This document shows positions 24,364 through 36,601 of a stretch of 64,000 nucleotides of DNA, in pieces. Origin of the DNA: Dehalogenimonas sp. 4OHTPN (GTDB taxonomy: Bacteria > Chloroflexota > Dehalococcoidia > Dehalococcoidales > Dehalococcoidaceae). Position 1 is the stretch's first letter, and every line of letters starts with the position of its first letter. The notes under the pieces are model-generated. The model was not told the origin of the DNA, did not search any database, and saw only the letters and a list, made by a program, of their open reading frames with translations. Position numbers and translations under genes: made by a program. The DNA is taken from NCBI RefSeq assembly GCF_040448695.1, contig NZ_CP159307.1, positions 682,001-746,000 of the forward strand, given 5' to 3'.

Positions 24364-25059
24364 ATGGTGAAGAACGAAGCGACCACTTTCCTGCTTCTGT
24401 GGGGGGGCGCGCTGTGCCCGGACTCCCTGAACAGGGTGATGTATTGGGCGGTTAACTACCAGGGTGAAATTTGCGGCGTGATCCTGCCGGCGGCGGTGTG
24501 GCGGAGGGTGGTCAACGTTCTCGAGTCGCCGTCGGAACTGGGAGCTCCTTATTTGGCCGTGGCCGTTACCGGAATCGCCGAAGAGCGGCCGGAACTGCGG
24601 CTGGTAACCCTCGACGCCGATTCCCTGTATGATTTTTGCTACCTTAAAAATGCAGTTTACCGTATGCGCCAGTCGCCGCAGCAGCTCAAGATGGATGCCG
24701 GTAAACTGACCAACAGCGTCGGTATCGCCGAACTGCCGCCGATGGCGGTATTGAGGCGTTTCGGCTCGCGGCCGGACCGGGGCGAGTTTTTTACCCTGAT
24801 GCCGGATAAAAAACGGGTTGAACTGTATTATCTGATTGAGGAAGACGAAATCCCGCCGGAAAAACTGGGCGTTCAGGTCCTGTGGGGTCTCAAAGGCTAC
24901 GGGCTGCCGGCTGTCGCCCAGGGGACAGGCTATCGACCGGATGGCGCTGAAAAAGCCATGCTGGGGCGGTCCGCGGTCAAGCCGCCTCCGTTGTGGTTCC
25001 GGGATTTACTCAAGCTGTTCAAGCGTGGGCGGCGGCCGCCCAGGTCAGCGGGCGTTTAG
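24364..25059 (+). CDS. Hypothetical protein, family not recognised
   Basis: The protein has 231 residues. There is no signal peptide or membrane segment. The sequence is evenly mixed and Pro-rich near the end, with a strongly basic tail (LFKRGRRPPRSAG). GC content and codon use match the backbone, and the frame is far longer than chance in this GC range. Candidate recurring features are a RRFGSRPDRGEFF segment and an ELYYLIEEDEIPPEKLG segment. It is divergent from rsmD, alone, with a leaderless-type promoter. I assign no function. Confidence 0.6.
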   Translation: MVKNEATTFLLLWGGALCPDSLNRVMYWAVNYQGEICGVILPAAVWRRVVNVLESPSELGAPYLAVAVTGIAEERPELRLVTLDADSLYDFCYLKNAVYRMRQSPQQLKMDAGKLTNSVGIAELPPMAVLRRFGSRPDRGEFFTLMPDKKRVELYYLIEEDEIPPEKLGVQVLWGLKGYGLPAVAQGTGYRPDGAEKAMLGRSAVKPPPLWFRDLLKLFKRGRRPPRSAGV

Positions 25060-25413: not shown

Positions 25414-28400
25414 ATGAAGTCTCAAGTCAGTAGGAGGGACTTCCTCAAGGCCAGCGGCGGAGTCGCCGGACTCTTCGCTACAGCCGGGCTCTTCCGGGGT
25501 CCGCTGGGTGCCGACTCAGCGCTGCCGGTGGATGACCGCCCCCGCTGGACCAAGGAAACCTACACCATCTGTCCCTACGATGCTTCGGGCTGCGGTTTCA
25601 TCTGTCGCACCGACGCTCAGGGCAGGCTCGTCAATGTCGAGGGCGACCCCAATCACCCGGTGAACCAGGGCGGCGCCTGCAGCAAAGGTGCGGCCATCGC
25701 CCAGATTCACAACAACACCCGGCGTCTTCAGAAAGTGAGATACCGGGCGCCCGGCGCTTCCGACTGGGAAGAGAAAGACTGGGACTGGGCCATCACCGAG
25801 ATGGCCAAGCGCATCAAGGCCACCCGCGATGCCAACTGGATAGAGAAGAACGCCAAGGGCAATACCGTCCGCCGCGTCGAAGCCATGGCCATGGTTGGCG
25901 GTTCCTGTCTGGACAATGAAGAGTGCCAGCTTTTGGTAAAAATGCTGCGCAGCCTCGGCATGGTGTATTTAGAGACACAGGCGCGCCTCTGACATTCCTC
26001 AACTGTCGCCAGTTTGGCGGAATCGTTCGGACGCGGTGCCATGACCAACCACTGGACCGATGTGGCTAATGCGAACCTGGTCCTCATTATCGGCGCCAAT
26101 CCCGCCGAGAATCACCCCGCTTCCTACACCCATATCCTCAGAGCCCAGACCAACGGGGGTAAAATAGTGGTCTTAGATCCCCGCTTCACAAGGTCAGCGG
26201 CCAAGGCTGATATGTACGCCCCCATCCGTTCTGGAACTGACATCGCCGTCGTGGGCGCTATTATCAACTACGTCGTCAACGATATTGAAGCCAACCCTGC
26301 CAAATACAACATGACGTACCTTACCGAATACACCAACGCCCCGACGCTGATCAACCCGGATTTCAAAGGACCGGCTGACCTGGACGGCCTCTTCAGCGGC
26401 TACAACGCCGAAACCCGCAGCTACTCCAAGACAACCTGGAGCTATCAGCTAGACAGCGCGGGCGTCCCCATCAAAGACAAAACCCTCAAGAACCCGAACA
26501 GCGTCTTCCAGCTGCTCAAAAAACACTACTCGCGCTACACTTTCGCCAAAGCGAATGAAGTGTCCGGGATTCCGGTGGACAAGCTCCAGGAGATAGCCAA
26601 GCTGGTGGCTGCAACCGGCGCTCCCAATAAAGCTATGACCATCATGTACGCTATGGGCGCTACCCAGCACACCTACGGCACCCAGCTCATCCGCACCTAC
26701 TGCATCCTGCAGCTGCTTCTTGCCAATGTCGGCTTAGCCGGTGGCGGCATCAACGCCCTCCGCGGCGAATCGAATGTTCAGGGCGCTACTGACTGGGGCA
26801 TTCTCTTCCACCTGCTGCCGGGATACCTTCCGGCGCCGACTGAAACTGACACTACCTTGGCTGCCTACAATACGCGGACGGCGGTCGTCAAACGCGAACC
26901 CCGCAGCCTCAACTGGTGGAGCAACCGCCCCAAGTACATCGCCAGCCTGCTGAAGACCTGGTACGGCGACAACGGCACTGTTGCCAACGACTTCGGCTTC
27001 AACTGGCTGCCCAAGATGGATACTGGCGCCAACCATTCCTTCATTCCCCTTTTCAAAAACATGTATGAAGGTAAGATCAAAGGCCTGATGATCTGGGGCC
27101 AAAATCCCGTCGTCAGCGGCCCTAACCAACAGCAAATCGTCGGTGGTATGGAAAAGCTGGACTGGGTCATTGCCGCTGATCTCTGGGAGAACGAGAGCGC
27201 CAACTTCTGGAAGAGACCCGGTGCCAATCCGGCCAACATCAAGACCGAGGTCTTCCTGCTGCCGGCTGCCGCTTCCTTCGAGAAAGAAGGTTCGGTTGCC
27301 AATTCTAGCCGCTGGATGCAGTGGCGCTACAAGGCCGTCGAACCTCCGGGTGAGGCCATGCCTGATCTGGACATGATCAATAAGCTCATGCTCAAGCTGC
27401 GAGAACTCTATAACGCTGAGGGTGGCCCCAACGCCGATGCCATCACCAAGCTGGCCTGGAATTACGGTACCCATGTTGATCCGCATCAGGTCGCCAAAGA
27501 AGACAACGGCTATGACTTGAAGACCGGCAAGCTTATCGGCAACTTCACCCTGCTTCTCACCGATGGAACTACCTCTTGCGGCAACTGGATCTATTCCGGC
27601 TCCTACAACGAAACCGGCAACCTGTCCGCCCGCCGCGACCTCGATGACGGGCCGTTCAATATCGGCCTGAACGCCAAATACGCCTGGTCCTGGCCGCTCA
27701 ACCGGCGCATCATCTACAACCGCGCCTCGGTTGATCTGGACGGCAAGCCTTTCAATCCGGACAAACCGGTGGTCAAATGGAACGACACTACCAAAGCCTG
27801 GGAAGGCGATATCATCGACGGCGGCTCAGGCCCGTTGAATCAGGGCGGCTGGCTGCCATTCATAATGCAGGCTGAGGGCGTCGCCAGCATCTTCGGCCCC
27901 GGCCTTACCGACGGCCCATTCCCGGAGCACTACGAGCCCTGGGAAAGCCCGGTGCAAAATTCCATGAGCAAGCAGCAGGACAATCCCGTGTTCAAGATCT
28001 GGGAAGGCGGTCTGGATGTCAAGGGTTCGGCCGCGGAATTCCCCATCGCCTGCACCACCTTCCGCGTCGTCGAGCACTGGCAGGCCGGCGCCATGTCGCG
28101 CAACCTGCCCTGGCTGGTGGAAATGGTCCCGTCGCCGTACGTCGAGATCAGTGAAGCCCTGGCGGCTGAAAAAGGCATCGTCGCCGGCGATATCGTCAAG
28201 GTAAGCTCCGCCCGTGGCAGCGTCGAACTCCCGGCTATGGTGACCAAACGCGTCCAGGCCTTCAACCTCGGCGGCAAGACCATTCATCAGGTCGCCATCC
28301 CTTGGCACTGGGGCTGGGCCGGTCTCGGCACAGGCGCCAGCGCCAACGTGCTGTCGCCCAACGCCGGCGACGCCAATACCACCATCCCTGAATCCAAGGC

Positions 28401-28503
28401 CTTCCTGGTGAAGATCGAAAAGACCGATAAGACCGCAGAGATGTTGAAACTGGGGCACCGCGCCGTGCCTATTGAACCTCTGCCGTTGAAGAGGGGGATG
28501 TAA
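25414..28503 (+). CDS. Formate dehydrogenase catalytic subunit (FdnG-type), selenocysteine at TGA codon 193
   Basis: The protein has 1029 residues if the in-frame TGA at 25990-25992 is read as selenocysteine. The sequence QARL-U-HSSTVA...FGRGAMTNHW matches QARV-U-HGPTVA...FGRGAMTNHW of E. coli FdnG almost position for position. SRRDFLK plus a hydrophobic stretch is a Tat signal. CPYDASGC...C...GGACSKG holds the N-terminal [4Fe-4S] cysteines, and PRFTRSA with IRSGTD are molybdopterin-family blocks. Reading frame, codon use and homology continue uninterrupted past the TGA; a stop there would leave a useless 192-residue piece. It oxidises formate outside the membrane. It heads a four-gene operon with its Fe-S subunit 2 bases downstream. 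Confidence 0.93.
25993..26024 (+). promoter_or_regulatory. Candidate bacterial SECIS hairpin
   Basis: Directly after the TGA, CGCCA (26007-26011), loop GTT and TGGCG (26015-26019) form a perfect hairpin, with ATTC (25994-25997) able to pair with GAAT (26020-26023) beneath it. The apex is about 20 bases from the TGA and a T precedes the upper stem, as in SelB-binding elements. No folding program was run. Confidence 0.55.
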
Positions 28504-28505
28504 CG

Positions 28506-29324
28506 ATGGCTAAAGGACTGCTCATTGATACCGTTCGGTGCACCGGCTGCCGCGGCTGCCAGAGCGCCTGCAAGCAGTGGAACCTGAACCCGGCGGTCAA
28601 AACCGAGTTCAGCCCCACCATGACCAATCCCATTGAGACCAACGCCTATAACTTCGTTCACGTCGAATTCTTCGAGGTGATGAAAAACGGCAATCTGACC
28701 TGGAACTTCGTCTCCAAGCGGTGCATGCACTGCGAGCACCCCGCCTGCGCCTCGGTCTGCCCGGTCGGCGCCCTCCAGAAGCTGGATTTCGGTCCAGTCG
28801 TCTGGGAGGAAGGCAAGTGCATCGGCTGCCGCTACTGCCAGAACGCCTGCCCCTTCGACATCCCCAAATACACCTGGTTTACCGATGAAGGCAAAACTGA
28901 TCCCTGGCCCAAAATCGCCAAGTGTACCATGTGCTGGGACCGGCAGACCTCCAAGCAGCCGACCGAAGAGCCGGCCTGCTCCACCACCTGCCCGCCGAGC
29001 GCCATCATGTTCGGCGAACGGGACGCGCTTCTGGAAATCGCCAAAGGCCGCATTGCCCGCTCTCCCGACAAATACTTCAACCACATCTACGGCGAAAACG
29101 AGGCCGGCGGCACCCAGGTGCTGTTCCTGGGCGCTGTCAGCCCTCAGGAACTGGGCTTCCCCGAGGTCGAGACCGAGTCTTATCCCGAGTTCACCTGGGA
29201 ATTCCTGTCCAAGATCCCGTATGAGATCGCCGCGCTGGGCGCTTTCCTGGTCGGCACCTACGCCTTCCGCACCATGAGGATGAAGGGCAAGGGCGAGACA
29301 GCTGCTAAAGGAGGATCACACTAA
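28506..29324 (+). CDS. Formate dehydrogenase iron-sulfur subunit (four-cluster, membrane-anchored)
   Basis: The protein has 272 residues. Four cysteine groups are readable: CTGCRGCQSACKQW, CMHCEHPACASVCP, CIGCRYCQNACPFD and CTMCWDRQ...CSTTCPP, each for a [4Fe-4S] cluster, as in FdnH/HybA/DmsB. A C-terminal helix (about 242-258: IAALGAFLVGTYAF) would anchor it. It has no signal peptide of its own, so it is probably co-exported with the Tat-tagged catalytic subunit. It passes electrons from the catalytic subunit to the membrane subunit, whose ATG overlaps its stop codon. Confidence 0.93.
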   Translation: MAKGLLIDTVRCTGCRGCQSACKQWNLNPAVKTEFSPTMTNPIETNAYNFVHVEFFEVMKNGNLTWNFVSKRCMHCEHPACASVCPVGALQKLDFGPVVWEEGKCIGCRYCQNACPFDIPKYTWFTDEGKTDPWPKIAKCTMCWDRQTSKQPTEEPACSTTCPPSAIMFGERDALLEIAKGRIARSPDKYFNHIYGENEAGGTQVLFLGAVSPQELGFPEVETESYPEFTWEFLSKIPYEIAALGAFLVGTYAFRTMRMKGKGETAAKGGSH

Positions 29325-30487
29325 TGACCAACCGAAACGTACCCCTCTTTAGCTTCTGGGGCGTCGTCCAGTTCCTGTTCCTGCTGGGCGCCATCGGCGT
29401 GGCTGTCGCCAAGCTGATCTGGGGCCTGGGGGCGGTGACCAACCTGTCAGACAACTGGCCGTGGGGCCTGTGGGTCGCCTTCGACGTCGGCGTTTACATC
29501 GCCTCGGCGGCCGGCGGCTTCGTCCTGGCGGCCATCGTCTACATCTTCAAGGTGGAAGCCTTCCGGCCGCTGGTCAAGCCGGCCATCCTGATCGCCACCC
29601 TGGGCTACACCATCGGCGCCTTAGGCATCGCCATCGACCTGGGCCGCAGCCCCTTGATCATCCACCCGCTGTGGATGTGGCAGCCCGGCTCGATCATGTT
29701 CGAGGTGGCTTGGTGCGTCATGATGTACCTGACGGTGCTTTACCTGGAGTTCTCGCCCAACCTTTTCGCCCGCTTCGGCTGGGTGAAGGCCGCATCGGTG
29801 CAACACGCGCTGGTCGTCCCCCTGGTCATCTTCGGCATCCTTCTGTCCTTCCTGCACCAGTCGAGCCTGGGCGCCCTGTTCCTGATCACGCCTGACCAGC
29901 ACGGGCTGTGGCATCTGCCGCTGATGGGCTATCTCTTCGTCATCTCGGCCATGTCGCTGGGCTTGTCGGTGCTGACCTTCTTCTCGGTCATCATGGCCAA
30001 GAGCTGGAAACTGACGCTGCGGATGGACCTATTGCCCAAGGTCATGGCCATCGCCGCCTGGATCCTGGTCTTCTACCTGGGCCTGCGCTTCTACGATACG
30101 GCGGCCTCCGGCGGCTTCTCGGAGTTCGCCTTCGACGAGTTCGGGGCGCTGTTCCTGGTGGAGGTCGGCCTGGGCATGGTACTGCCGATCATCCTGATCG
30201 CCATGAAGAAGGTGCGGGAGTCCCGGAGCGGCTTGCTTTGGGCGTCGTCGCTGATCATCATGGGCCTGGTTTTAAACCGGGTGAACACCCTGGTCATCTC
30301 CCATGCGCCGGCGCGCTTCGGCAGCTACTTCCCGACGGTGTGGGAGTTCATCTTCACCCTGGGACTCATCTTCGGCGCCATGTTTGCCTTCCGGCTGGCG
30401 GCGCGCTACCTGCCGCTGTTCTCCGAACAGAAGGCCGGACTGCCTGAATCAGTCGCCCGCGCCAACCCTGAAGTGGTGACTGCATAG
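29324..30487 (+). CDS. NrfD/HybB-type membrane subunit
   Basis: The protein has 387 residues and about nine or ten transmembrane helices. The start NVPLFSFWGVVQF, then NWPWGLWVAFDVGVYIA and a late GSYFPTVWEF, are typical of HybB/NrfD (PF03916, PF14589-like). Classical FDH-N uses a cytochrome b (FdnI) here; no such gene is present. In related Dehalococcoidia an NrfD-type subunit links the molybdopterin complex with the hydrogenase/dehalogenase respiratory complex. It starts at the ATG overlapping the previous stop codon and ends at the start of fdhE. Confidence 0.92.
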   Translation: MTNRNVPLFSFWGVVQFLFLLGAIGVAVAKLIWGLGAVTNLSDNWPWGLWVAFDVGVYIASAAGGFVLAAIVYIFKVEAFRPLVKPAILIATLGYTIGALGIAIDLGRSPLIIHPLWMWQPGSIMFEVAWCVMMYLTVLYLEFSPNLFARFGWVKAASVQHALVVPLVIFGILLSFLHQSSLGALFLITPDQHGLWHLPLMGYLFVISAMSLGLSVLTFFSVIMAKSWKLTLRMDLLPKVMAIAAWILVFYLGLRFYDTAASGGFSEFAFDEFGALFLVEVGLGMVLPIILIAMKKVRESRSGLLWASSLIIMGLVLNRVNTLVISHAPARFGSYFPTVWEFIFTLGLIFGAMFAFRLAARYLPLFSEQKAGLPESVARANPEVVTA

Positions 30488-31338
30488 TGAGTGCGTCGTT
30501 TTACCAGCGCTGCCGCGCAGAACTGCAGCGCTACGAGGCCGAAAAAGCCTTCCCGGAAGGGTACACCGGACTCAACAAAGAAATAATGGAAATCCAGGAG
30601 TCGGCCCGAGAACAACTCGGGCCGACTCCGCGGCTTTCCGAAGCCGCTTTGAACAATCTCAAAGAAGGCCAGATTGCCTTGACCGGCCAGAGCGTGCCGA
30701 TCCCGGTTTCCGTGTTTCGCCCGGCGGCTCTCAAACTGGCGGACGCTTTCAGCCGCGTCGCCGGTCAGCCGTTTCCGGTCGAGAAGATTTTTGCCCTGTC
30801 CGGATCTTCGGGCGATGACTGGCATACCCTTGCTGAAGACCTGCTGGCGGGACGGCTGGACCTTGCTGAACTGGCGGAAGGCAGCGGCTACAATACCGAA
30901 ACTATCGCCTATTTCCTGCACAGCCTTCTGGTGCCCTTCTACGAACACCAGTCGGAACCCTACCGGCAGATGCTCATGGATAAGGAGATCGCCTGGAACC
31001 GCGGCTTTTGCCCGGTCTGCGGCTCGCCGGCCAGATACGGGGTGTATTACGGGGAAAAAGGCTTCCGCAAGCTCTACTGCGGTCTCTGCCGCACCGAATG
31101 GCCCTTCCCCCGGCATATGTGCCCCCACTGCGAAAATCCCGAGATGGCTTCCATCCGGTCATTCACCATCGGCGGCGACCAGGCTCATGCGGCCGAAGTC
31201 TGCGACCACTGCCAGAGCTATCTCAAAGCCACTGACGAACGCCAGTTGCGCCGCGAATGCATCGCAGCGGTGGAGGATCTGGCCACCCCCGGCATAGACC
31301 TCACGGCCGCGGGTCAGGGCCTGTCCCGGCCGGCATAA
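30487..31338 (+). CDS. fdhE: Formate dehydrogenase accessory protein FdhE
   Basis: This 283-residue protein carries four CxxC pairs (CPVC, CGLC, CPHC, CDHC) of the FdhE rubredoxin-like metal-binding core. The surrounding WNRGFCPVCGSPA and GFRKLYCGLCRTEWPF match the family. FdhE is needed for activation or assembly of exported formate dehydrogenases. It begins at a GTG overlapping the NrfD stop (TAGTG). Its presence in the operon supports a working, Tat-exported formate dehydrogenase. Confidence 0.9.
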   Translation: MSASFYQRCRAELQRYEAEKAFPEGYTGLNKEIMEIQESAREQLGPTPRLSEAALNNLKEGQIALTGQSVPIPVSVFRPAALKLADAFSRVAGQPFPVEKIFALSGSSGDDWHTLAEDLLAGRLDLAELAEGSGYNTETIAYFLHSLLVPFYEHQSEPYRQMLMDKEIAWNRGFCPVCGSPARYGVYYGEKGFRKLYCGLCRTEWPFPRHMCPHCENPEMASIRSFTIGGDQAHAAEVCDHCQSYLKATDERQLRRECIAAVEDLATPGIDLTAAGQGLSRPA

Positions 31339-31470: not shown

Positions 31471-33597
31471 ATGCCTGGTATTTTCTGGCTTGTGCCCGTC
31501 ATCTCGCTGGTGACAGTCCTGTTTATCGTCTACCTGGCCCGCTTTGTCCTGGCCAAGGACACCGGAACCCCCAAGATGAGAGAAGTGGGGGACATGATTT
31601 TCGAAGGTGCCTGGGCGTTCTTGAACCGCCAGTACCGCACCATCGGTATTCTCTCCATATTTGTCGCTGTGGCTGTCGGCGCTGTCGTCGGCCTGCTGTC
31701 CGGGGAAAACACCCCGGGTGATGTCGGCCAGGCCGGCATTATGTGGCGCACCGGCGTCGCTTTCCTTGTTGGCGCTATCTGCTCTGGCATCTCCGGCTTC
31801 GCCGGCATGTACATCGCCGTCAAATCCAACGTCCGCTGCGCCGCGGCCGCCCAGCGGTCCTGGCGTGAGGCTATCGACGTCGCCATGCGCGGCGGCGCCG
31901 TCTCCGGCTTTCTGATCACCACCCTGTCTTTAATCGGTGTCACCGCCATCTTCTTTGCCTTCGGCGGCAATTCCGAGCCTGAAATCGCGCCTCATTTGAT
32001 CGTCGGCTTCGGCTTCGGCGCCAGCTTTGTCGCCCTGTTCGCCCAGCTCGGCGGCGGTATCTACACCAAAGCCGCTGACATGGGTGCCGATCTCGTCGGC
32101 AAAGTTGAAGCCGGCATTCCTGAAGATGACTCCCGCAACGCCGCGGTTATCGCCGATCTCGTCGGCGACAACGTCGGCGACTGCGCCGGCCGCGGCGCTG
32201 ACCTGTTCGAGTCCACCGCCGCCGAAAATATCGGCGCCATGATCCTGGGCGCTTCCGTATACGCCGTCACCGGCGATGTCGCCTGGATCATCTTCCCGCT
32301 GGTCGTCCGCGCCTTCGGTCTGGTGGCCTCCATGATCGGTCTGCTCATCGTCAAGGCTAAAGAAGAAGAGGATCCCATGGCCGCCCTCAACCGCGGCTAC
32401 TGGATGTCCATCGTCCTGTCCGCCATCGGCATGGTCATCACCGTGACTATCATGCTTGACAACTTCTGGCTGGCTGCCGCCGGCCTCGTCGGCATCCTCG
32501 CCTCGGTTGCCATTCTCTATATCACCCAGTACTACACCGACACCAAGTATAAACCGGTCAAGGACCTGGCCCAGGCTTCCCGCACCGGTTCCGCCACCAA
32601 CATCGTCGGCGGCATCGCCATCGGCTTCGAGACCGCCCTGCCTACCGCCCTGGTCATCGGCATCTCACTGTTGGTAGCCTACTTCTTCGGCCAGCAGTCC
32701 GGCGTTGAAGGCGCCGGCGCCTTCGGCACCGCCGTGGCCACCATGGGCATGCTGATGACCTGCCCCTACGTCCTGGCCATGGATACCTTCGGCCCCATCA
32801 CCGATAACGCCAATGGCATCAACGAAATGGCCGGCGCCGGGCCGCAGGTCCGCAAGATTACCGACCGGCTGGACGCTGTCGGCAACACCACCAAAGCGCT
32901 CACCAAGGGCTACGCCCTGGTCTCCGCCGGCCTGGCCGCCTTCCTGCTGTTCCAGGCTTACATGGACCAGGTAGAGTTCCTGCGCGGCACTCCGTTCGAT
33001 GTCATCGACCTGGCCAAACCAGAGGTCTTCGTCGGCGCCATGCTGGCGGTGATGCTGGTCTTCCTCTTCAGCTCCTGGGCTATCAAGGCTGTCGGCAACA
33101 CTGCACAGTTGATCATCGAGGAAGTCCGCCGCCAGTTCCGCGAGAATCCCAAGATCATGACCTTTGAAGCCAAGCCGGATTACGCCCGCGCCGTAGACAT
33201 CACCGCCCGGGCCGGTCTGCGCGAAATGATCAAACCCGGCCTGCTGCCGGTACTGGCTCCCCTGGTGTTGGGCGTCGGTTTCAACCTCATCGAAGGTTAT
33301 GACGCCGCCATGGCCGTGGGCGCCATGCTCATGGTCGGCACCATCGGCGGCATCATGCTGGCCGCCTTCATGAACAACGCCGGCGGCGCCTGGGACAATG
33401 CCAAGAAGTACATTGAAGACGGGCAGCTCAAAGACGACAAGGGCGTCGTCCAGGGCAAGCGCACCTTCGCCCACGCCGCGGCTGTCGTCGGCGACACCGT
33501 CGGCGACCCGTTGAAGGACACCGCCGGCCCGTCGCTGCACGTCCTGATCAAACTGCTGTCCACCATCACCCTGGTGCTGGTGCCCTTGTTCATCTAA
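31471..33597 (+). CDS. hppA: Membrane-bound proton-translocating pyrophosphatase
   Basis: The protein has 708 residues and about 16 transmembrane helices. GADLVGKVEAGIPEDD and DNVGDCAGRGADLFES bind Mg-pyrophosphate, and the C-terminal GDTVGDPLKDTAGPS is intact. GNTTKALTKG carries Lys where K+-dependent enzymes have Ala, which marks the K+-independent H+-pumping class. The first motif has DMGAD where DVGAD is usual. It hydrolyses pyrophosphate and pumps protons. TAGGAGGACT precedes the ATG. It is monocistronic and followed by a strong terminator. Confidence 0.95.
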   Translation: MPGIFWLVPVISLVTVLFIVYLARFVLAKDTGTPKMREVGDMIFEGAWAFLNRQYRTIGILSIFVAVAVGAVVGLLSGENTPGDVGQAGIMWRTGVAFLVGAICSGISGFAGMYIAVKSNVRCAAAAQRSWREAIDVAMRGGAVSGFLITTLSLIGVTAIFFAFGGNSEPEIAPHLIVGFGFGASFVALFAQLGGGIYTKAADMGADLVGKVEAGIPEDDSRNAAVIADLVGDNVGDCAGRGADLFESTAAENIGAMILGASVYAVTGDVAWIIFPLVVRAFGLVASMIGLLIVKAKEEEDPMAALNRGYWMSIVLSAIGMVITVTIMLDNFWLAAAGLVGILASVAILYITQYYTDTKYKPVKDLAQASRTGSATNIVGGIAIGFETALPTALVIGISLLVAYFFGQQSGVEGAGAFGTAVATMGMLMTCPYVLAMDTFGPITDNANGINEMAGAGPQVRKITDRLDAVGNTTKALTKGYALVSAGLAAFLLFQAYMDQVEFLRGTPFDVIDLAKPEVFVGAMLAVMLVFLFSSWAIKAVGNTAQLIIEEVRRQFRENPKIMTFEAKPDYARAVDITARAGLREMIKPGLLPVLAPLVLGVGFNLIEGYDAAMAVGAMLMVGTIGGIMLAAFMNNAGGAWDNAKKYIEDGQLKDDKGVVQGKRTFAHAAAVVGDTVGDPLKDTAGPSLHVLIKLLSTITLVLVPLFI

Positions 33598-35095: not shown

Positions 35096-36601
35096 ATGTC
35101 CAGGTTCCATTCTCCACTTTCACGGCGTGATTTCATGAAGGCTCTGGGTTTCACAGGTGCTGGCTTGGGAGGCGCCGCTGCGCTTACGTCTCCAGTATTT
35201 CAAGACCTTGATGAACTCATGTCGTCCAACGGCAACTACTACGGATATGAAGTCGGTGATGGTTATATTCCCAACCTGCCATGGTATGTGAAGCACAAAG
35301 AATACTTTGAACCCACCGTGCCGATCGATTGGGATCATAAATGGCGCGTCGACGGCCGCCATGCCAGAGACTATAACGTAAAAGAAAGTAAATGGTTCTT
35401 TGATGCCTACAGCCTCGAGCAGGCGAAAAAATATGCCGAATGGCAGGAGGGCTACGATCCCAAATACAATTGGAAAGACCCCCGGCGCCAAGCGCTTGAT
35501 TCGGCTTCACAGGCAATAAACTCTTTCGTACCAAAACTGACTTTTCTAGGGCAAACCCCAACAAAAACACCTGAAAAAACAGGGTACCCTAAATGGACAG
35601 GGACTCCTAAAGAGAATATGAATCTGTTGCGAGGCATCGCGAGGTTTTTCGGGTGTGACGATATTGGGGTTATGGAGGATGACCCCCATTTGGAGCGCTT
35701 GACAACCACCTATGATATGGAAAGCGCCAAGATTGACCGGGAGAATGTGGATAACCCATACGTTGAAACCGATTCCAAAGGTAAGGTAACTAGAAAAGTT
35801 ATTCCGACAAGTTTTAAGTGGTCATTCGTCTGGACCTTCAGGCAAAACATCGATATGACTCGAGTTCAGCAGGGCGGCATCATGAGGGCTTGGCCGGAAT
35901 ATAATCCTCTCGGAGCCGGAGAAAATGCCGCAGTCTGGTACTGCTATTCCAGGATGAGTATTGTCGAAATCCGGTTGATGCAGTTTATCAGGGCGCTTGG
36001 CTACGATTGTGTAGCCGGAGGAATGAGCGCCATTACGTCTGGAACGGCTTTAGCGACTGTAAATGGTCTCCTTGAACATGCCAGAATGGGCCAGGTTGCT
36101 CTCCATCCAAAATTCGGGGCTACAATCCGCAGCACTTACAAGATGTGGACCAACCTGCCTTTGGTGCCAACCCGGCCGATTGATGCAGGTATCTATGAAT
36201 TCTGCAAGACGTGTGAAATCTGCGCGGAAGCTTGCCCGGGGCAAGTTATCCAGAGAAACCAGCCAACCTGGACCACCGGGCGAAATCCCGAAAACGGCGA
36301 TGATAACGGTGAACTCGGAGAGCCTCTGCCTTATCAGGCGCAAGGATTTCTCGGCTGGCGCACCGATATCGGGAAATGCCCTCATTGTCCGATGTGCCAG
36401 GGCACCTGCCCGTTCAATGAGATGCCGGAGGCTTCCTGGCTGCATACACTGGTCAAAACTACGACTGCCAATACAACCATATTCAATAAATTCTTCGCGG
36501 ATATGGATCGAACCTTCAAATATGGTCATAAGCTGGAAGCGGATTACTTTGACGAGCGCTTCGGCAAGATGCCTACCTACGGCATCGACACCATGCGATA
36601 A
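35096..36601 (+). CDS. rdhA: Reductive dehalogenase catalytic subunit RdhA
   Basis: The protein has 501 residues. It has a Tat signal SRRDFMKALGFTGAG (residues 9-23) with a hydrophobic stretch after it, and a corrinoid/dehalogenase core. Two [4Fe-4S] motifs follow: Cys370, 373, 376, 380 (CKTCEICAEACP) and Cys428, 431, 434, 438 (CPHCPMCQGTCP). Length and order match respiratory RdhA of Dehalococcoidia. It removes halogen from an organohalide electron acceptor at the outer face, using a corrinoid. The substrate cannot be told from sequence. GAAAGGAGG precedes the start and rdhB follows by 21 bases. Adjacent regulator genes of the MarR or two-component type are absent. Confidence 0.95.
   Translation: MSRFHSPLSRRDFMKALGFTGAGLGGAAALTSPVFQDLDELMSSNGNYYGYEVGDGYIPNLPWYVKHKEYFEPTVPIDWDHKWRVDGRHARDYNVKESKWFFDAYSLEQAKKYAEWQEGYDPKYNWKDPRRQALDSASQAINSFVPKLTFLGQTPTKTPEKTGYPKWTGTPKENMNLLRGIARFFGCDDIGVMEDDPHLERLTTTYDMESAKIDRENVDNPYVETDSKGKVTRKVIPTSFKWSFVWTFRQNIDMTRVQQGGIMRAWPEYNPLGAGENAAVWYCYSRMSIVEIRLMQFIRALGYDCVAGGMSAITSGTALATVNGLLEHARMGQVALHPKFGATIRSTYKMWTNLPLVPTRPIDAGIYEFCKTCEICAEACPGQVIQRNQPTWTTGRNPENGDDNGELGEPLPYQAQGFLGWRTDIGKCPHCPMCQGTCPFNEMPEASWLHTLVKTTTANTTIFNKFFADMDRTFKYGHKLEADYFDERFGKMPTYGIDTMR

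Follow-up and report, generated by a model that had tools for sequence, protein, structure and literature searches.

A probable selenocysteine-containing formate dehydrogenase encoded across an in-frame TGA in Dehalogenimonas sp. 4OHTPN

Introduction

In the 64,000-nucleotide stretch of the Dehalogenimonas sp. 4OHTPN genome analysed here (the window), a gene resembling fdnG, for the alpha subunit of a formate dehydrogenase (FDH), is interrupted by a TGA at codon 193. The question is whether positions 25414 to 28503 of the forward strand hold one gene, with the TGA translated as selenocysteine (Sec), or a broken one, and what its product would do in an organohalide-respiring lineage.

That Dehalogenimonas has a Sec FDH is true and already known. 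For D. alkenigignens IP3-3, selC and the Sec genes were described along with a SelD and an FDH that both have an internal UGA and a putative SECIS (PMC4918011, 2016), and Sec at position 193 was subsequently reported for strain GP (PMC7729418, 2020). Most recently, the FdnG proteins of the genus were stated to contain Sec, with selCDAB in all genomes analysed (PMC13390414, 2026), and strain 4OHTPN appears in the genome table of that paper with a closed genome of 1.75 Mb. The selenoprotein has thus been on record since 2016, and the gain from the present work therefore lies in confirmation and a few comparative details. The published proteins (DEALK_19115; HX448_03659, with Sec193; Dform_00419; see PMC4918011, PMC7729418 and PMC13390414) belong to the same genus and share the TGA position and the flanking sequence with the 4OHTPN gene, from which no relevant difference was found.

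Reading frame and in-frame TGA

Translation of 25414..28503 (+) reveals exactly two stops in frame, the TGA of codon 193 (25990..25992, +) and the TAA of codon 1030 (28501-28503), so that reading through the former yields a protein of 1029 amino acids with Sec as residue 193. The mechanical list of open reading frames cuts the gene into 25414-25992 and 26014-28503, exactly the two pieces that a sequence-only reading of this DNA had expected gene callers to report. The same reading held that homology carries on in frame for 836 codons behind the TGA, which is borne out by the translation, the family model and the solved structures. At the base composition of the gene, the chance of finding 836 more open codons is about 1.4e-12, and the GC content of the three codon positions is similar before (0.60/0.49/0.77) and after (0.56/0.44/0.76) the TGA. 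The read-through protein scores 1219 bits against TIGR01553 (FDH-N alpha; cut-off 814.2), matches profile positions 1-1009 of 1009, and comprises an Fe4S4 domain (PF04879), a molybdopterin domain (PF00384), a dinucleotide-binding domain (PF01568) and a TAT signal (PF10518).

The best matches among solved structures, spanning residues 5-1004, are the D. vulgaris Sec FDH entries PDB 9qm0, 8cm4 and 6sdr, which we take to be alpha subunits of FdhAB. The TGA aligns with their Sec position in QARI[U]HSPTV (the structure-search tool prints U as C), and the Sec-His motif is the same. The active-site residues U193, H194 and R450, the last within NALRGESNVQG, are intact. D. vulgaris FdhAB is soluble and periplasmic, whereas the 4OHTPN operon has an NrfD-type membrane subunit in addition.

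A frame that is mechanically interrupted could reflect a nonsense mutation, a decaying pseudogene or a sequencing error. Yet the TGA occupies codon 193 in 7/7 Dehalogenimonas genomes in which the gene was found (orthologues 66-99.9% identical to that of 4OHTPN) and recurs in most homologues of the class. The open frame of 836 downstream codons, with its unchanged codon-position GC, the strong codon conservation adjoining the TGA and a full sel cluster in the genome likewise speak against a broken gene. Such explanations thus have a negligible probability: the presence of the TGA in all seven orthologues rules out a sequencing error, and its conservation across species in practice rules out a pseudogene as well. 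The UGA of codon 193 is almost certainly decoded as Sec, judging from sequence comparison, and 25414-28503 should be annotated as a single selenoprotein gene rather than as two pieces.

SECIS region

A bacterial SECIS should leave a trace of selection in the RNA directly behind the UGA, and the gene shows a pattern consistent with it. Where residues are invariant among the seven proteins of the genus, codon identity reaches 0.971 in codons 194-203, against an average of 0.535. No other window of the gene scores as high (permutation p about 1e-5), and widening the set to 14 sequences gives 0.863 after the UGA versus 0.489. Within the codon-conserved block, the 4OHTPN gene carries one synonymous change, TCA for TCC at codon 196.

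The top codon-conserved window marks a putative SECIS over codons 194-207 (25993..26034, +), with a possible hairpin at 25995-26022 and an apical loop UCGC. In RNA folding, this predicted hairpin was not significantly more stable than shuffled sequences (z about -1), covariation in the region did not exceed that of shuffles among 19 sequences, and RNAalifold gave another helix, of 5 bp. The assignment as a putative SECIS is therefore based on codon conservation.

Selenocysteine machinery

The 4OHTPN genome is closed, with one contig of 1,750,158 bases. The sequence-only reading had proposed that the lack of selB/selC from a closed genome would refute Sec; all four genes, selC, selD, selA and selB, were found contiguous in a single cluster at about 225969-230432, each over its family cut-off. 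The selC gene scores 71 bits and is called by ARAGORN as a tRNA-SeC with anticodon tca. The selD gene (about 226098-227135) has an in-frame TGA of its own at the active-site position, in the motif SGUAAK, and SelD is therefore a second selenoprotein of 4OHTPN. The genome also contains fdhD. Across the class sample, SelB over the cut-off accompanies Sec in 20/22 genomes, Cys in 1/5 and Ser in 0/3. The two Sec genomes in which no SelB passed the cut-off, G384 and G131, are incomplete draft assemblies.

Operon partners

Directly downstream of the alpha gene, at 28506..29324 (+), lies a gene for a HybA/HmcB-type, ferredoxin-like electron carrier with Fer4 domains, the presumptive beta subunit. It scores 213 bits against HmcB and 203 bits against HybA, both below the cut-off, and the FDH-beta model TIGR01582 scores lower still (139 bits; cut-off 334.7). 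The gamma gene (29324..30487, +) encodes an NrfD/HybB-type integral membrane protein (PF03916; PRK10881), which is OmeB-like, being 66% identical to the protein at the OmeB position of Dehalococcoides-like genomes. An FdhE-like FDH accessory protein (PF24859 and PF24860; TIGR01562 below cut-off) is encoded at 30487..31338 (+).

E. coli FDH-N (FdnGHI, PDB 1kqf) resembles the 4OHTPN enzyme in its alpha family (TIGR01553), its Sec and its TAT signal. The gamma subunit of FDH-N, however, is the cytochrome b FdnI. Neither an FdnI-type gamma with b haems nor an FdnH over the family cut-off was found in the 4OHTPN operon, which thus falls outside FdnGHI in the strict sense. With gamma distinct from FdnI and beta below the FdnH cut-off, the enzyme is more aptly seen as an FDH-N alpha subunit seated on an Ome/Hyb-type membrane module, a build also described for OmeAB-HupX of Dehalococcoides, a type II CISM complex (PMC10772276).

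Residue 193 across the class

Aligning residue 193 across Dehalococcoidia, a check proposed with the sequence-only reading, gave Sec in 22/30 orthologues, Cys in 5/30 and Ser in 3/30. The three Ser proteins (codons AGC/AGT) come from genomes of a sister genus in the same family (G013, G049 and G098), which kinship, genome size and gene order suggest to be Dehalococcoides; this confirms the Ser that the sequence-only reading had given for Dehalococcoides. In these three genomes, no SelB over the cut-off was found, and their proteins also have Thr for His194 and Gly for the catalytic Arg450. Because Ser193 goes together with the loss of His194 and Arg450, the Dehalococcoides-like homologues look derived. 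For Dehalococcoides, Ser at the Sec position has been described before, together with a predicted loss of formate activity, OmeA being considered inactive (PMC5736913). This mark of OmeA, Ser in place of Sec or Cys, is not seen in the 4OHTPN alpha subunit, in which Sec, His and Arg are all present.

The two forms are connected by their genomic position. The Dehalococcoides-like alpha locus has the neighbourhood of 4OHTPN, with coaD and rsmD divergent from alpha, followed by gamma and fdhE, but without beta. With D. mccartyi OmeA-OmeB, 4OHTPN shares the order rsmD-coaD-alpha-gamma-fdhE, and the alpha subunits are 54% and the gamma subunits 65% identical; the former differs in Ser193, Thr194 and Gly450, in an operon without beta and in that no SelB passed the cut-off. 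The common rsmD-coaD neighbourhood indicates one ancestral locus, which was apparently turned into OmeAB in Dehalococcoides.

The protein tree of alpha is unrooted and its Ser branch is long. Under a simple model, the Dehalococcoides-like Ser clade grouped with two degenerate paralogues, a grouping that falls apart under a mixture model. The latter does not reject a single clade of the Ser proteins and the Sec proteins of Dehalogenimonas (AU p 0.28). As the placement in the tree is loose, the rsmD-coaD neighbourhood was taken as the better evidence of orthology. The claim that Dehalogenimonas keeps the ancestral form has good support: it agrees with the 22 Sec proteins among 30 and with a Ser clade that lacks His194 and Arg450, but the unrooted tree, in which the long Ser branch is loosely placed, does not prove it. 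Sec as the older state at residue 193 is the simplest reading of the alignment and appears well supported. The contrast with Dehalococcoides, where Sec, His and Arg are lost at the same locus and no SelB passes the cut-off, offers a clean natural case of an FDH that would have been recruited as a respiratory relay subunit.

Two congeners, G146 and G124 (probably strains W and BL-DC-9), each carry a further FdnG-like paralogue, which is divergent and has other residues in place of Sec, His and Arg.

Proposed function

We consider it highly probable that 25414-28503 forms a single gene, which encodes the TAT-exported alpha subunit of a molybdenum (or tungsten) FDH and in which UGA193 is translated as Sec, with a formate-oxidising site and a routing of electrons as follows. 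SelC, SelA and SelD would make Sec-tRNA, which SelB would bring to the UGA with the help of the putative SECIS overlapping codons 194-207. Sec193, His194 and Arg450 would then form the formate-oxidising active site, from which electrons would pass from alpha via the HybA-like beta to the NrfD/OmeB-like membrane subunit and on to the organohalide-respiration machinery, without FdnI-type haems. The intact active site makes it plausible, and indeed likely, that the 4OHTPN enzyme is formate-active, and this organohalide-respiring lineage could plausibly draw electrons from formate.

According to a text of 2017, Dehalogenimonas is unable to use formate (PMC5736913), and growth with H2 has been described for D. 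alkenigignens IP3-3 (PMC4918011). The latter would suit a protein that contains Sec but acts in 4OHTPN mainly as the electron-relay subunit of an organohalide-respiration complex, in the role of OmeA, and oxidises no formate in vivo. Such a role is also favoured by the OmeB/HybB-like membrane subunit, by the position of alpha beside rsmD and coaD, which in Dehalococcoides-like genomes is taken by omeAB-fdhE, and by biochemical work, cited in PMC13390414, that points to an OmeA-like role in Dehalogenimonas. We nevertheless regard a relay without formate oxidation as unlikely. Sec, His and Arg are kept here, whereas all three are lost in the Dehalococcoides-like homologue, and the retention of selCDAB and Sec suggests selection on catalysis. 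Moreover, D. etheniformans is named formate-oxidizing in a title cited in PMC13390414. The two roles are in any case compatible rather than exclusive, and the Dehalogenimonas enzyme has been proposed both to take electrons from formate and to relay those from Hup (PMC13390414).

Gamma gene duplication and the G068 locus

4OHTPN has two copies of the gamma gene, one in the fdh operon of the window (29324-30487) and one at 1746685-1747845 of the genome, beside Hup-type hydrogenase genes. The two encoded proteins are 100% identical. At the DNA level, 1159 bases are the same in both, over a span that coincides with the open reading frame. In strain GP (G189; 2,068,322 bp), identity between the two genes is 98.3-98.5% over this span, and G083 shows a similar pattern. 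Pairs within a genome are 99.8, 99.5 and 98.3% identical, whereas the same copy compared between genomes is 97% identical for the two nearest, 79-81% for more distant ones and 88% for G189 versus G200. That gamma genes are closer within than between genomes points to repeated gene conversion, and the comparison accordingly suggests that this process has acted on gamma in Dehalogenimonas, a genus for which no paper on gene conversion was found in the literature examined.

A different arrangement is seen in a closed congener of low GC content (G068, probably WBC-2; 1,725,728 bp). SelB is present there, but no FdnG-type alpha was found in the closed genome, and alpha and beta are absent from its gamma locus. 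This locus (in the region 106000-120000) consists of a gene like that at 24364-25059 of the window and then gamma only, near the hup operon, whereas in other genomes the order is this gene, alpha, beta and gamma. The lack of alpha and beta does not agree with the literature, where conservation of the fdn operon is stated for every genome analysed. The remaining FDH of G068 is a presumably cytoplasmic protein of 888 amino acids with NuoG-like N-terminal domains (TIGR01591, 858 bits). It has a TGA at the Sec position, where the three congeners read there have Cys. In the literature examined, neither a loss of alpha and beta combined with Sec in another FDH nor the gamma duplication in the Hup operon was found.

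We tentatively suggest, as a possibility somewhat short of even, that gamma is a shared docking part with two near-identical copies, one beside the Sec FDH and one beside Hup, which gene conversion would homogenise along exactly the length of the open reading frame. The FDH alpha and beta subunits would then be an exchangeable electron-entry module, deleted in the G068 lineage, which would use its Sec in a cytoplasmic FDH.

Flanking genes

The gene upstream of alpha (24364-25059) is uncharacterised and lacks an NCBIfam match. It also precedes the locus in G135, G124 and G068, and no gene like it was detected around the alpha genes of the Dehalococcoides-like genomes or of strain GP in the stretches examined. 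Directly downstream of fdhE lies a gene for a membrane pyrophosphatase (31471-33597). The HppA protein of D. mccartyi co-migrates with OmeA, OmeB and HupX (PMC6005880), but the adjacency was not seen at the other loci examined and was dropped as a conserved feature of the operon. Farther downstream, at a distance of 3.8 kb from the fdh operon, lies a reductive dehalogenase gene (35096-36601; TIGR02486, 256 bits).
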